Shown piece by piece: positions 1,184-8,662 of a DNA stretch of 64,000 bases. A model generated the notes under the pieces. That model was not told the origin of the DNA. It ran no database searches and was given only the letters and a program-made list of their open reading frames with translations. Numbering within the stretch: the first letter of the stretch is position 1; each line of letters opens with the position of its first letter. The DNA is from a virus. The position numbers were made by a program, and so were the translations under genes. Where the stretch lies: positions 168,029-232,028 of the IMG/VR virus record IMGVR_UViG_3300030329_004647; one strand, 5' to 3'.

Positions 1184-3904
1184 ATGCACATCCCAACTCA
1201 AAAAGACATAGAACAATTTCTACACGGTAATGACCCAGAAAAATACATAGTATCCTTAGAATTTGGTTATCGTTCAGGTAAAATATACAAAATTAAAGAG
1301 GACCCTAAAAGAGGAAAAATTGTAGAACCCGATACCTTTGTACCATTTTGTTGGGTAGGTGACCTAAGAAGTAAAAATTTTTACCAAAATAATAAAATCC
1401 TCCAAAAACAAGCAATTTCTAAATATGGAATTTTAATAGAGCCATTAGACACAGCTAATGATGAAAGATTAGAATCTGGATTAAAATACTTAGTAAAAAC
1501 AACCAAAACTTATAGAGACTTAGTTACGTTTTTTAGACAGGGTGGGTTGGAACCGTGGGCTCAAGACAATAGGGATACTATTCTTATTTTACCACCTATA
1601 GAACAATATTTAATACAAAAACAAAAAAGATTATTTAAAGGATTTGAAGATTATGATAATATCCATAGGTTTGTTTTTGATTTGGAGACCACAAGTTTAA
1701 GACCTTCAGATGGTAGAATTTTTATGATTGGTATGAAGGACAATAGAGGGTTCGAAAGAGTTATAGAAGTCAAAAACGATAATGAAAGTGAAAAAGACGC
1801 TATTATACAATTTTTTGAAACTATTGATGTAATACGACCAACAATTATTGGTGGTTATAATTCAGCAAACTTTGATTGGGATTGGTTATTTGAAAGAGCA
1901 CAAATTTTAGGTGTAGACACCACTAAATTTAAAACACTTAATCCAAATGAAGGATATAAATTAAAAAAAGGGGTTTTAAAGTTAGGTGCAGAAGTAGAAG
2001 AATACAATCAACTTAAAATATGGGGATACAATTCAATTGATATAGCACACGCGGTTAGAAGAGCACAAACTATTAATTCAGACATTAAAAGTTGGGGACT
2101 AAAATATATAACCCAATTCACCAATTCTGAAAAACCAAACAGGGTTTATGTTCCTGGTGATAAAATTGCGTCAACTTATAGTGAAAATAAAGAGTATTAC
2201 CTAAATAAAGATAATGGTAACTATAAGTTAACCACAGAACCAGGTTTACACAATTTAGATAAAAAATTTCCTAATGTTTATGAAAAGGTTAATGGTGAGT
2301 ATATTATAGAAAGATATCTTATGGACGATTTATGGGAAACAATGGAGATTGACGCTCAATTTAACCAAGCTTCCTTTCTACTAGCTTCTATGGTACCCAC
2401 TACCTATGAAAGAGTTTCTACTATGGGGACAGCTACATTATGGAAAATGTTAATGTTAGCTTGGTCCTATACAAATAATTTAGCTATCCCTAAGAAAAAG
2501 GAAAAAAGACCTTTTGTCGGCGGACTATCACGATTAGTTAAAACGGGTTACTCAACTAAAGTTTTAAAATTAGATTTTAGTTCACTATACCCTTCAATAC
2601 AATTAGTACACGACGTATTCCCAGAATGTGATGTTACTGGAGCTATGAAATGTATGTTAAAATATTTTAGAGATACTAGGATAAAATATAAAAATTTAGC
2701 TTCAGAATATTATGAAAAAGATAAAAAAAAGTCTGAATCTTTTGGGAGAAAACAACTACCTATTAAAATTTTTATTAATTCTATGTTTGGTTCTTTATCA
2801 GCACCTCAGGTATTCCCTTGGGGTGACATGGATAGAGGTGAAGAAGTTACTTGTACCGGAAGACAATATTTAAGACACATGATAAAATGGTTTATCTCAA
2901 AAGGATATAAACCTTTGGTGTTGGATACTGACGGTGTTAATTTCTCATCACCAGAAGGTGTCGAGTCACATTCATATGTGGGTGTCGGTAATAACGAATT
3001 GGTGAAAAACGGAAAGGAGTATACTGGTAGTGATGCTCATGTAGCTGAGTATAACGATTTATATATGGTGGGTGAAATGGGGTTAGATACAGACGGAACT
3101 TGGCCCTCTTGTATTAATGTAGCTAGAAAAAATTACGCTTTACTTACTGATAAAGGAAAGGTTAAATTGACGGGTAATTCTATTAAGTCTAAAAAAATGC
3201 AAGGATTTTTAGAAGATTTTATAGATAAAGGTTTAAGAATTTTATTAGAAGGTAGGGGTTCTGACTTTATAGAATATTATTATGAATATTTGACATTAAT
3301 ATTTAATAAAGAAATTCCATTAGCTAAAATAGCTAATAAGGCAAGAGTAAAACAAAGTATAGAAGCTTATAAAAAACGATGTACACAAAGAACCAAAGCT
3401 GGACATTTAATGGCAAGACAAGCTCATATGGAGTTAGCAATTAGTAAAAACTTAAAAGTAGATTTAGGAGATACAATACATTATGTTAATAATGGTAAAG
3501 TAATGTCTCATGGTGATGTACAAAGAAAAAAGAAAAAAGACGGTACTGAAGAAATTGTTTTAAATTGTTATTTAATTTCAGAAAATGAACTACAAAATGA
3601 AACAACAGGAGAATATAATGTACCAAGATGTATAGCCGCGTTCAATAAAAGAATCGAACCATTATTAGTTTGTTTTAAACCAGAAATTAGAGACAGTATT
3701 TTAGTTAAAAAACCAGAAGATAGACAATACTTCACAAGAAAACAATGTGAATTAATAAATGGTATAGCTAGAAGACAAGGGGACCAAGACTCTCTAGAAG
3801 AAATATTAGAGTTATCTCCAGAAGAAAAAATATTCTGGTCTCAAACTATGGGAGAAAGTGAAAATTATTTTCTTGAAAAATTAGGACTCTTTGATACCGT
3901 CTGA
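1184..3904 (+). CDS. gp43: Family B DNA polymerase with 3'-5' exonuclease
   Basis: 906-residue replicative polymerase, close in length to T4 gp43 (898). The exonuclease domain shows Exo I as DLE (D166, E168) and an Exo II-like YNSANFDWDWL around residue 223. The polymerase domain shows motif A DFSSLYPS (D464), motif B as KIFINSMFGSL near residue 530, and motif C LDTDG (D581, D583). Both active sites look intact, so proofreading and synthesis are expected. It should form the replisome with the SSB and helicase encoded 33 kb downstream. It has its own candidate early promoter at 1128-1158. Its last 24 bases overlap the 3' end of the convergent minus-strand gene, and no terminator separates them. 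Confidence 0.97.
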   Translation: MHIPTQKDIEQFLHGNDPEKYIVSLEFGYRSGKIYKIKEDPKRGKIVEPDTFVPFCWVGDLRSKNFYQNNKILQKQAISKYGILIEPLDTANDERLESGLKYLVKTTKTYRDLVTFFRQGGLEPWAQDNRDTILILPPIEQYLIQKQKRLFKGFEDYDNIHRFVFDLETTSLRPSDGRIFMIGMKDNRGFERVIEVKNDNESEKDAIIQFFETIDVIRPTIIGGYNSANFDWDWLFERAQILGVDTTKFKTLNPNEGYKLKKGVLKLGAEVEEYNQLKIWGYNSIDIAHAVRRAQTINSDIKSWGLKYITQFTNSEKPNRVYVPGDKIASTYSENKEYYLNKDNGNYKLTTEPGLHNLDKKFPNVYEKVNGEYIIERYLMDDLWETMEIDAQFNQASFLLASMVPTTYERVSTMGTATLWKMLMLAWSYTNNLAIPKKKEKRPFVGGLSRLVKTGYSTKVLKLDFSSLYPSIQLVHDVFPECDVTGAMKCMLKYFRDTRIKYKNLASEYYEKDKKKSESFGRKQLPIKIFINSMFGSLSAPQVFPWGDMDRGEEVTCTGRQYLRHMIKWFISKGYKPLVLDTDGVNFSSPEGVESHSYVGVGNNELVKNGKEYTGSDAHVAEYNDLYMVGEMGLDTDGTWPSCINVARKNYALLTDKGKVKLTGNSIKSKKMQGFLEDFIDKGLRILLEGRGSDFIEYYYEYLTLIFNKEIPLAKIANKARVKQSIEAYKKRCTQRTKAGHLMARQAHMELAISKNLKVDLGDTIHYVNNGKVMSHGDVQRKKKKDGTEEIVLNCYLISENELQNETTGEYNVPRCIAAFNKRIEPLLVCFKPEIRDSILVKKPEDRQYFTRKQCELINGIARRQGDQDSLEEILELSPEEKIFWSQTMGESENYFLEKLGLFDTV

Positions 3905-4846
3905 CGAAACAATCATCCAAGAAGACATAGGTTCATAATATCTAAACTCAACACAACTTTCAGGCAACATCTCTAAAGACTCCCATTGATTATCTATGTA
4001 ACCTTTATCTGGAAATACGTTACAATTTGCTAATGATTTAATAACATATTTTTTAGCAACATGACTGTCTAAGGTATAATCTACATCCTCATCTAAGACA
4101 ATAAAAACATCTTTTTCACAAAGACATTCTTTTTTAGTGGTTTCCGTTGAAGTATTAACCTTAGGTGTGTGACCCTTTTTAAGATATTCTATTATAGCTA
4201 GAGTAAGTAATTTATAGTTAACTCCTCTAGGGGTCTTACCATCTATTTCATATGATACAAAATCAGTTAGTCCTAAATCATGTACTTCTTCCGCTATTAA
4301 TCCTATAGCTTCTGTTTTATCTGCCTTCCACCTAAATCTTTTAGTTTCTAAACTTAATAAATTTTCTAAATTTAGAATATCCGTATTTCTAATATCGTAT
4401 TTAACTCTTTTTGTCGAGGTATCAATGTATATGTTACCATTAGAATCAATACCTAAAGCGTCTTTATCCGCAGCCAATAAATTACTTCTATTAATTTGTA
4501 GGCATGTAGCACTAAACGCGGGAACATTTGGGTTACTCCTATCAATTGGGTCTAAAGGTGCTTGACCAATAGATAAAACTGTAGTCGCACTTGTTATTCC
4601 TGAATATGTTGTTATAGCTACACCGTGAGTACAATCTTCAGTAAGATTTCCAGCACTATTATATATTGAACTACCAACTAACAGTGTAGCTCCACTAGAA
4701 CATCGTGTACATGCACTAGAATAACTAAATCCGTTATTCATAGCTCTGAAATTTCCTAAATAAAAAGTGTTACCAGATAATATAGCGGTTTGACCACTAT
4801 ATTGCCTCATTTGTCTACTATAATCTATCTTTGTATAAAATCCCAT
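3881..4846 (-). CDS. Fibre/spike protein with S74 intramolecular chaperone domain and C-terminal extension
   Basis: 321 residues. The N-terminal 140 residues are Ser/Thr/Gly-rich, like a short fibre tip. Residues of about 145-225 match the peptidase S74 chaperone domain: TKRVKYDI, then LETKRFRWK, then IGLIAEEVHDLGL, and a closing VNYKLLTLAIIEYLK. In this family the domain trimerises a beta-helical fibre and often cleaves itself off at a serine just before the (K/R)xK start; a Ser lies at that place (TSTKRVK), so processing is possible. Unusually, about 95 more residues follow the domain, including CLCEKD and an acidic stretch. It is the last gene of a leftward pair, one base from the neck-like gene, and tail-to-tail overlaps DNA polymerase by 24 bases. 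Confidence 0.8.
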   Translation of the reverse strand: MGFYTKIDYSRQMRQYSGQTAILSGNTFYLGNFRAMNNGFSYSSACTRCSSGATLLVGSSIYNSAGNLTEDCTHGVAITTYSGITSATTVLSIGQAPLDPIDRSNPNVPAFSATCLQINRSNLLAADKDALGIDSNGNIYIDTSTKRVKYDIRNTDILNLENLLSLETKRFRWKADKTEAIGLIAEEVHDLGLTDFVSYEIDGKTPRGVNYKLLTLAIIEYLKKGHTPKVNTSTETTKKECLCEKDVFIVLDEDVDYTLDSHVAKKYVIKSLANCNVFPDKGYIDNQWESLEMLPESCVEFRYYEPMSSWMIVSSDGIKES

Positions 4847-6699: not shown

Positions 6700-6837
6700 T
6701 TTACTACACCAATAAAGATACATTAGGATTATAGTATAAATTTTTTCTTTATAAAAAAGCGGTATTTAATTATAATATTTTAATCACATTTAGAGCTAGT
6801 CTTTAAAAAGTAAAAAACAATAAAAAAATAGTTAAGT

Positions 6838-6943
6838 TTGTCGTAAAAATATTAACAACAGAAATAGTAACATAGCTAAACTTATGACAATTAGCTGTAA
6901 TTAAATAAAAATCACCCTAAAACCTTGACTTATTTTACGACAA
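6838..6943. repeat. 11-bp perfect inverted repeat with 84-base spacer
   Basis: TTGTCGTAAAA at 6838-6848 and its exact complement TTTTACGACAA at 6933-6943. The arms contain a CG step, which is uncommon in this AT-rich gap. They are too far apart for a simple terminator and could be a pair of protein-binding sites. Confidence 0.5.
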
Positions 6944-7124
6944 TTTTATATTAAAACTTGGAAAAATTAGAGTAAATTAGTGAAAATAATGGAAAATAAT
7001 TGATATTAAAAAAAATACGTCTAACGTGTGTATAAACGTAAGTTTTTTAATAATTAAAATTAAGTTTGTATTATTGACTACTATGGTTGGGGTTAAAATA
7101 TGGGTTTTTAGTAATAATAACGGG

Positions 7125-7131
7125 TATTTAT
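7125..7131 (+). promoter_or_regulatory. TATTTAT element before the small membrane protein
   Basis: Exact TATTTAT ending 33 bases before the ATG at 7165, in the sense orientation shared with the elements before virion genes. Confidence 0.3.
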
Positions 7132-7164
7132 GACTACCAATAACAGTTATAAAAAATAGTGATT

Positions 7165-7389
7165 ATGGATTCAGTATTTAAGTATGTAAATGGTTTTATT
7201 AGTGGAGTTGGAAGTCTTTTTATGGCTTTCATACCAGTAACGATTCTATGGTATGTATTGACTGGCGGTGCTGTGTTTAACATGGACGTAGTAGGAAACT
7301 TAACAAATCTTCTAACAAGTTTAGGTGACGGAGGTTTTGTTGGTTTAGTAGTATTAGTTATTCTAGCATCCTTTTTTACAAAAAAGTAA
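7165..7389 (+). CDS. Small two-helix membrane protein (holin-like size)
   Basis: 74 residues from the ATG at 7165; a GTG two codons earlier at 7159 is possible but less likely. Two hydrophobic segments are visible, about residues 15-35 (GSLFMAFIPVTILWYVL) and 54-70 (GFVGLVVLVILASFF), joined by a short polar loop, and the protein ends in a Lys pair (TKK). Size and topology resemble class II holins, but no family motif proves this and no endolysin gene lies next to it. It sits just upstream of the outer-membrane barrel gene, so both may act on the host envelope. Confidence 0.6.
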   Translation: MDSVFKYVNGFISGVGSLFMAFIPVTILWYVLTGGAVFNMDVVGNLTNLLTSLGDGGFVGLVVLVILASFFTKK

Positions 7390-7390
7390 A

Positions 7391-7424
7391 ATAAAAAAAG
7401 GTGAAGATAATTCTCTTACACCTT
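7391..7424 (-). terminator. Hairpin with T-run for leftward transcription
   Basis: AAGGTG (7398-7403) pairs with CACCTT (7419-7424), and additional pairs inside continue the stem with a bulge. On the minus strand it is followed by seven T. On the plus strand the hairpin is followed by A, so it should act only leftward. It would stop readthrough coming from the dismutase operon across the barrel gene. Confidence 0.45.
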
Positions 7425-7463
7425 AAAAAAAAATGAGAATATAAAAAGAGAAAAAATTTTAAT

Positions 7464-7871
7464 ATGAAAAATTTAATTTTAGCAGGGATTTTCAGTTTAG
7501 CCACTTTATGTGGGTATTCACAAACAAAGGGAGACTGGTATGTAGGAACAGGCGACATCGCGAACAGCGCTTGGACTGACTGGGCAGTATCACCAACGAT
7601 TGGATACGGAATTATGGACAACCTAATGATAGGAATGTCTGTATCACAAGCTGATTCTACTGTGGATATGGATTTGGATTTTCACGCAAGATACTTTACA
7701 AAAGGATATTTTGTGTATGTTGCAACAGATGGATTGAGTACTGACAACATGGTTTTAGGAGGTGGTAAAATGTTTGCCTTCAGAAACAATATGTACATCG
7801 ACCCAAAAATTGTATACAACATGGGTGAAAAGACCACAAACCTTACAATGGGATTTGGTTTCAAATTTTAA
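7464..7871 (+). CDS. Outer-membrane beta-barrel protein with signal peptide
   Basis: 135 residues. Residues 1-20 form a classic signal peptide (MKNLILAGIFSLATLCGYSQ), with Bacteroidetes-style cleavage near the final SQ. The rest alternates short beta strands and turns: DWYVGTGDI, SPTIGYGIMDNLMIGMSVSQ, LDFHARYFTKGYFVYVATDG and a final TMGFGFKF ending in Phe, the C-terminal signal for barrel insertion. The length suits an eight-strand barrel. It looks slightly richer in G+C than its neighbours, hinting at host origin. A phage-made barrel could mask receptors (superinfection exclusion) or alter host permeability; neither is shown. The gene is followed by a structured RNA region and a strong terminator. 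Confidence 0.8.
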   Translation: MKNLILAGIFSLATLCGYSQTKGDWYVGTGDIANSAWTDWAVSPTIGYGIMDNLMIGMSVSQADSTVDMDLDFHARYFTKGYFVYVATDGLSTDNMVLGGGKMFAFRNNMYIDPKIVYNMGEKTTNLTMGFGFKF

Positions 7872-7886
7872 CAAAATAGTAAAGGA

Positions 7887-8010
7887 TAAATAATTTAAGA
7901 CGGTTGCAAATTAGTGAAAGTTTTTTCCCGCAACCAAAAGATGGAAACTAATTACGGATTTTGAATTATTTAAGAGTTGCGAAGAACCCTGACGACGGTC
8001 AGGGTTTTTT
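7887..8010 (+). ncRNA. Candidate structured RNA with nested pseudoknot, ending in a terminator
   Basis: A closing helix of about 14 pairs joins 7887-7900 to 7959-7972, with two G-U pairs. Inside it, stem GGTTGC (7902-7907) pairs with GCAACC (7930-7935), and the loop segment AATTAGT (7909-7915) pairs perfectly with ACTAATT (7947-7953), forming an H-type pseudoknot. A second copy of GTTGC at 7976-7980 could compete for GCAAC at 7930-7934. The element is followed by the terminator hairpin at 7985-8006. It may be a structured 3' UTR of the barrel gene or a separate small RNA. No known RNA family is recognised. Confidence 0.5.
7985..8010 (+). terminator. Strong intrinsic terminator
   Basis: A 9-bp perfect stem, AACCCTGAC (7985-7993) with GTCAGGGTT (7998-8006), has a GACG loop, and its T-run extends through 8010. 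It ends rightward transcription from the barrel gene and RNA region. The T-run touches the stop codon of the convergent dismutase gene. Confidence 0.9.
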
Positions 8011-8662
8011 ATTGCTTAGACTTTAAAGTATCACTAACATTATTCCAGTTAACAACTTTCCAGAAATTTTTTATATATTTTTTTCTATCGGACATGTAAT
8101 TAAGGTAATAAGCGTGTTCCCACACATCTAAACCTAGTAGAGGTTCCCCTAATCCTTCCATTAAAGGATTATCTTGATTGGGTGTTGTAACTATTTTAAG
8201 TCGTCCATTTTTTAACACCAACCAACACCAACCAGAACCAAATACTTTACCTGACTCTTCGTCAAACTGTCTTTTAAAATTATCAAGACTACCAAAATCT
8301 TTATTTATTTTTTGTCTTAGTTCTTTAGACAAGTCTGTTTTGTTGGGGGTGATATAATCTTTAAAAAATAAACTATGATTATAATACCCACCAGCATTAT
8401 TCCTAGTAAAAGTATCATAATTTTTAATACCTTTAATAATTTTTTCTATGTCTTTTGGTGGGTTTTTTCTTTTAGATAGAGCTTCATTTAGTTTTGTTGT
8501 ATACCCCTTATAATGTTTATTATAATGTTCCCACATTGTTTCATAACCCACGAAATCTTTAACAGAATTATAATCATATGGTAGACTAACCCTCTTAAAA
8601 AATGATTTTTTAGCTTCCGCTATAATATTTTCGTTTAATATTTTCTTAATTAAATTTCTCAT
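8009..8662 (-). CDS. sodA: Fe/Mn-type superoxide dismutase, Mn-like, with N-terminal extension
   Basis: 217 residues that match the Fe/Mn dismutase fold along nearly the whole length. Metal ligands are visible as H46 (WEHYNKHY), H96 (NHSLFF), D179 and H183 (DVWEHAYY). Y54, the GSGWCWLV segment and the closing FWKVVNW are also conserved. The second-sphere Gln sits in NQDNPL (Q163), as in Mn enzymes, while the Fe-type Gln site carries Gly (GGYYNH). The enzyme converts superoxide to peroxide and oxygen. Unlike cellular enzymes, the usual LPY start is preceded by about 25 residues (MRNLIKKILNENIIAEAKK) resembling the start of the 41303 protein. The start codon overlaps the upstream gene by 4 bases, implying translational coupling. 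Confidence 0.93.
   Translation of the reverse strand: MRNLIKKILNENIIAEAKKSFFKRVSLPYDYNSVKDFVGYETMWEHYNKHYKGYTTKLNEALSKRKNPPKDIEKIIKGIKNYDTFTRNNAGGYYNHSLFFKDYITPNKTDLSKELRQKINKDFGSLDNFKRQFDEESGKVFGSGWCWLVLKNGRLKIVTTPNQDNPLMEGLGEPLLGLDVWEHAYYLNYMSDRKKYIKNFWKVVNWNNVSDTLKSKQ

Follow-up and report, generated by a model that had tools for sequence, protein, structure and literature searches.

A conserved structured RNA behind a predicted outer-membrane barrel gene, a candidate new 3'-UTR RNA family of phages

Introduction

Between the stop codon of a predicted outer-membrane barrel gene and a terminator hairpin, a phage genome carries a stretch of DNA that can fold into nested and competing helices. 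Is this stretch a functional RNA and, if so, what might it do? The window analysed here covers the final 64 kb of an IMG/VR virus record that is 232,028 bases long, from a phage that, judging by IMG sample numbers, is presumably marine. Salinibacter phages have relatives of its DNA polymerase (23% identity); this and the style of the signal peptides weakly suggest Bacteroidota hosts. An initial annotation of the locus had described a pseudoknotted RNA and offered three functions for it: a phage small RNA, a stable 3' UTR or a ligand-responsive switch.

Results

Organization of the locus

The RNA element is placed between the barrel-gene stop codon and the terminator hairpin. The features of the locus are as follows.

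7165-7389, + strand: TM protein, 74 aa, with two hydrophobic stretches; first gene of a two-gene unit
7464-7871, + strand: barrel protein, 135 aa, with a signal-like helix and a C-terminal F; modelled as an 8-stranded barrel
7887-7972, + strand: structured RNA, outer helix P1 around a conserved core
7887-7900 with 7959-7972, + strand: outer helix P1, 14 pairs, two of them G-U
7902-7957, + strand: core, 56 nt, 91-100% identity between the window and homologues
7902-7907 (GGUUGC) with 7930-7935 (GCAACC), + strand: helix S1, invariant in all homologues reaching it
7909-7915 (AAUUAGU) with 7947-7953 (ACUAAUU), + strand: helix S2, all Watson-Crick; an H-type pseudoknot with S1
7920-7926 (GUUUUUU) with 7936-7942 (AAAAGAU), + strand: alternative helix P3, which lies inside S2 and competes with S1; its apical loop, CCCGCAACC, is C-rich
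7974-7980, + strand: conserved G(A/T)GTTGC between P1 and the terminator; its GTTGC (7976-7980) could pair with GCAAC (7930-7934)
about 7981/7984-8008, + strand: intrinsic-terminator-like hairpin, AACCCTGAC GACG GTCAGGGTT, followed by a T tract

Every pairing of the initial annotation is present in the sequence where it had been placed: P1, S1 and S2, as well as the repeated GTTGC and the terminator. The terminator hairpin (7981-8008) also ends a SOD gene, which converges on the RNA locus from the other side. This phage-encoded Fe/Mn SOD (8009-8662, - strand) has an intact metal-ligand motif, DVWEHAYY, and matches Pfam Sod_Fe_C (1.2e-40) and no PHROG.

The TM protein (7165-7389) had no match in Pfam, PHROG or NCBIfam. 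Most of the collected related contigs have a member of its family next to the barrel gene; members (74 aa, hydrophobic) were seen in 223 viral stretches, usually by a small barrel gene, with the order flipped between lineages. The AlphaFold model of the barrel protein (pLDDT 75) has eight long strands, and among solved structures it comes closest to OmpA and designed transmembrane barrels (E ~2.5e-3), with avidins close behind. The outer-membrane location named in the initial annotation is likely but stays a prediction. The gap between the two genes (7390-7463) holds a hairpin (GGTGAAGATAATTCTCTTACACC), and hairpins of other sequence lie at the same place in contigs L004, L010, L055 and L068. 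Upstream of the TM gene are about 430 gene-free bases (6724-7158), which is long for a phage genome.

Folding compared with chance

The region 7872-8015 folds at -40 kcal/mol, as against -22.7 kcal/mol in shuffles (z -5.5), and beats 200 of 200 dinucleotide shuffles. A large share of this stability comes from P1 and the terminator. Of 2000 shuffled versions of 7872-7981, 7 gave a pseudoknot at least as strong as S1 plus S2, and so did 44 of the 6390 windows slid along the phage sequence; by itself the pseudoknot is unusual, not unique, and structure alone is only suggestive. Because similar pseudoknots occur in shuffles and in other windows, it is conservation, not structure alone, that makes the RNA convincing.

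Homologues and selection on the core

A pattern search with the 18-mer GTTGCAAATTAGTGAAAG found five other IMG/VR contigs, and a 3' pattern together with relaxed patterns brought the set to 14 IMG/VR contigs besides the window, with one copy in each; the remaining pattern matches were coding or chance. The covariance model recovered all members (78-121 bits) and a second copy in no record. No further member came from loosening both core helices in the search pattern or from searching 76 further TM-protein loci with the model. One more weak model match (G018), which lies inside a gene and has no P1, was dropped. One of the carriers, the 99.6-kb phage contig L006, also has a tmRNA gene at 3635-4045 (Rfam 106 bits; ARAGORN tag AKLVTLGLVREESTVAVA).

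At the identity given above, alignments of the core with that of the window contain 0-3 gapped bases, and in L006 and L007 it is identical at 56 of 56 positions. The window barrel has about 30% of its residues in common with the other carriers' barrels. Where the encoded amino acid is the same, third codon positions are 49-64% identical in the barrel gene (29% would be expected by chance from composition) and, between the window and other carriers, 38-48% in the TM gene. If the core evolved like such sites, at least 55 of 56 identical bases would have a p of ~1e-9 or less, a figure that treats sites as independent and presumes that the RNA and the genes descended together. A core so well preserved while its neighbours are near saturation bears the mark of function under strong selection. 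A coding reading of the core (RLQISESFFPQPKDGN) is ruled out by 1-nt indels, a stop in L012 and a frame that is not kept.

Evidence for the individual helices

In 15 homologues, 96% of the P1 cells are paired; in the slid controls, pairing was 97% in register as against 22-48% out of register. Both-side changes affect two pairs and three cells (A-U/G-C and A-U/C-G exchanges), and 22 cells are G-U and none A.C. Since G-U cells occur and A.C cells do not, P1 appears to act as RNA on the + strand; this bias and the slid controls carry the argument, because the both-side changes are few and the sequences related. Comparison of the homologues indicates that 7887-7972 is conserved as a + strand RNA whose outer helix drifts around a nearly frozen core. 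The structured RNA first proposed for the barrel-gene 3' UTR is accordingly upheld by its conservation in 14 other contigs and by strand-specific pairing of P1.

These data also bear on a reading without RNA function, in which the locus would serve as a site in the DNA, or be a terminator region that was exchanged recently and drifts neutrally. Contigs often have the terminator sequence in common too, and the near-identity of the core could partly reflect recent 3'-end exchange between phages. However, P1 and the flanks differ between the same contigs in which the core does not, which weakens the recombination account, and the G-U bias of P1 points to an RNA of one strand; we consider this reading improbable.

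S1 is invariant, as are six pairs of S2, whose outermost (seventh) pair is lost in L055, L066 and L068. Covariation therefore neither proves nor refutes these two helices, which would rest on perfect complementarity instead. The compensatory changes that the initial annotation expected in three helices appeared in P1 and in neither S1, which never varies, nor S2, whose outermost pair is only lost.

S1 alone was recovered by RNAalifold on the alignment, whereas in every homologue the nested structure of lowest energy (MFE) is one long hairpin made up of P1, S2, a 4x4 purine loop (GAAA/GGAA), P3 and the loop CCCGCAACC, with S1 open. Variation in P3 comprises one U and one A lost together in L010 and L012 and a U.G replaced by U-A in L004 and L055; in L068, three purine-loop mismatches become U-A, A-U and A-U. 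Support for P3, a helix absent from the initial annotation, is modest, because the varying sites are also pseudoknot loop sites, free to change. As P3 competes with S1, two conformations may be open to the core. The H-type pseudoknot of the initial annotation stands in that the pairings of S1 and S2 are present and kept; that they make up one fold is not established, given this competition.

Could the core then be a ligand- or protein-binding switch, which alters transcript stability or termination by passing between the pseudoknot (S1+S2) and the extended hairpin (S2+P3)? S1 and the complete S2-P3 rod would be sterically exclusive, the nested alternatives are within a few kcal/mol of one another, and the pseudoknot and the hairpin lie near each other by hand-estimated energy. 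The paired indel and the Watson-Crick replacements fit P3, and S1 is invariant. Yet the support for P3 comes from few events, the pseudoknot energy is a hand estimate, and an expression platform upstream of a gene is absent, so we regard such a switch as unlikely.

Of 15 homologues, 13 keep the second GTTGC unchanged; it reads GTTGT in L068 and is destroyed (GTGTCAC) in L012. It is therefore not essential, and its proposed alternative pairing with GCAAC is contradicted by L012.

Genomic context of the RNA

In all 12 readable loci (11 contigs and the window), a barrel stop codon lies directly upstream of the RNA on the same strand, a few tens of bases from the core. The upstream side is unreadable in three of the 14 contigs (L003, L005 and L009), whose assemblies end inside the RNA; such breaks are expected if several phages of one sample share an identical core.

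Among the collected loci related to the TM and barrel genes, the RNA is present in 8 of 11 contigs with the TM-then-barrel order (window included) and in none of the loci with the barrel-then-TM order (25 loci plus L001; 58 classified loci, partly overlapping those). The barrel of L001 is 75% identical to that of the window, and the compared part of L001 holds no RNA. L014, L018 and L019 have the TM-then-barrel order and no RNA, so the RNA is dispensable. L014 and L019 carry a plain terminator instead, and in L018 a short hairpin whose arms resemble P1 (AAGTAACTAAATTACTT) stands without a core, which looks like core loss. In the tree of the TM protein, which is poorly resolved with most forks weak, the RNA carriers do not group. 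Terminators of other sequence follow the RNA in L010, L012, L055 and L068, though the core is kept. The genes downstream differ between contigs or converge; thus, the RNA appears to belong with the barrel 3' end and not with a regulated downstream gene.

This context would suit a cis-acting 3'-end module, in which P1 and the compact core stop 3'-to-5' exonucleases or processing and so keep the barrel mRNA abundant: the RNA sits between stop codon and terminator only where the barrel gene is last, and its fold is very stable. On the other hand, a roadblock requires structure rather than a sequence frozen down to its loops, and L014 and L019 seem to manage with the terminator hairpin alone. We see this module as possible but rather doubtful.

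Searches among known families, phages and bacteria

A scan of the window with Rfam 15 found no family at gathering score, and at E up to 10 gave only weak opposite-strand matches over the terminator; in the homologues, likewise, there was no match at the RNA element. With an outer helix that drifts and ~56 nt of frozen core, the element looks as a small ribozyme would, which brings up a self-cleaving ribozyme or other catalytic RNA. Such an identity is very improbable, because no Rfam ribozyme matched even at E 10 and there is no positive sign of cleavage.

Among the annotated phages of INPHARED, no relative of the RNA, the barrel or the TM protein was found. In 398 genomes from the order to which Mesonia belongs, there were only scraps of 19-40 nt (E 0.0008-0.01), in 24 genomes, matching different parts of the query and read as chance. 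A bacterial origin, raised by 19 pattern matches in GTDB, was rejected, as these were chance matches by eye. CRISPR-repeat mimicry, brought up by the GTTG..CAAC ends, was also considered; the RNA is single-copy and has no bacterial match in the genomes searched.

The longest antisense match to the core in the window is 14 nt, at ~10182 on the - strand in a helicase gene (AAAAAACTTTCACT); shuffled cores give 10-13 nt, and this low-complexity match is probably chance. No convincing antisense target of the core was found within the 64-kb window.

Discussion

Taken together, these comparisons make 7887-7972 very probably a functional RNA (about 93%), and its best reading is as a candidate new 3'-UTR RNA family absent from Rfam. 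Of the three functions first offered, the position speaks most for a small RNA or a 3'-UTR element and least for a classical riboswitch, because no gene consistently follows the RNA.

What this RNA may do is suggested by analogy. IpeX is the 3' part of a porin transcript (phage PA-2 / DLP12, E. coli). It is made as part of the phage porin transcript, needs processing, controls OmpC and is 167 nt long (PMC12197685). The RNA described here also lies 3' of a phage (predicted) outer-membrane barrel gene, on the same strand, in 12 of 12 readable loci. It differs from IpeX in size (~120-130 nt proposed here) and, as far as can be discerned, in host group, and is likened to it by position, not sequence. 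24B_1 from phage Phi24B is described as a small RNA that is cut from a longer transcript and adjoins an outer-membrane protein gene (lom region) (PMC4426718). The RNA here likewise lies beside a phage (predicted) outer-membrane protein gene; in contrast, 24B_1 is 20 nt long, belongs to a temperate phage and has another structure.

The frozen loops argue for sequence-specific recognition. Together with the position behind the last gene and the precedent of IpeX, they lead us to favour, tentatively and at somewhat less than even odds, a 3'-end-derived regulatory RNA that acts in trans; the cis-acting module and the two-state switch are the competitors to be taken seriously. The two-gene transcript of TM protein and barrel would carry the RNA in its 3' UTR and end at the terminator. 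Its 3' end, from ~7880 to the terminator, would then persist or be processed to a small RNA of ~120-130 nt, whose core would contact an RNA target or an RNA-binding protein sequence-specifically, with P1 as a replaceable clamp. The contact surface may be the C-rich loop CCCGCAACC, which GGUUGC would lock away in the pseudoknot and the formation of P3 would expose.

Two other pseudoknotted RNAs invite comparison. The T4/T2 gene 32 pseudoknot has a one-base first loop across a second stem of 6-7 bp. This leader is a phage H-type pseudoknot (PMC3014915). The RNA here would share that design, and the two-state switch considered above would be comparable to gp32 and its leader pseudoknot. However, the gene 32 pseudoknot is part of a 5' leader, where it nucleates gp32 close to the start site, whereas the RNA here has a long second loop (~14 nt) and, instead of leading a regulated gene, lies behind a stop codon with following genes that differ or converge. 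ToxI, a type III antitoxin, is a short pseudoknotted RNA unit in phage-related loci. It forms a tandem array followed by toxN; the RNA here is present as a single copy per record, with SOD or other genes as neighbours and no toxN.

Known structured RNAs from phages of marine bacteria are few, and the 56-nt core sequence provides a usable probe for metatranscriptomes and for pull-down of a binding partner. The bacterial RNA switches known so far are mostly in front of genes. It is a long shot that this RNA is a new class of phage switch in a 3' UTR, with a 56-nt core that would pass between pseudoknot and long hairpin when a metabolite, protein or RNA binds. If that were true, the switch would adjust how much is made of a membrane protein, one that would remodel the cell during infection.
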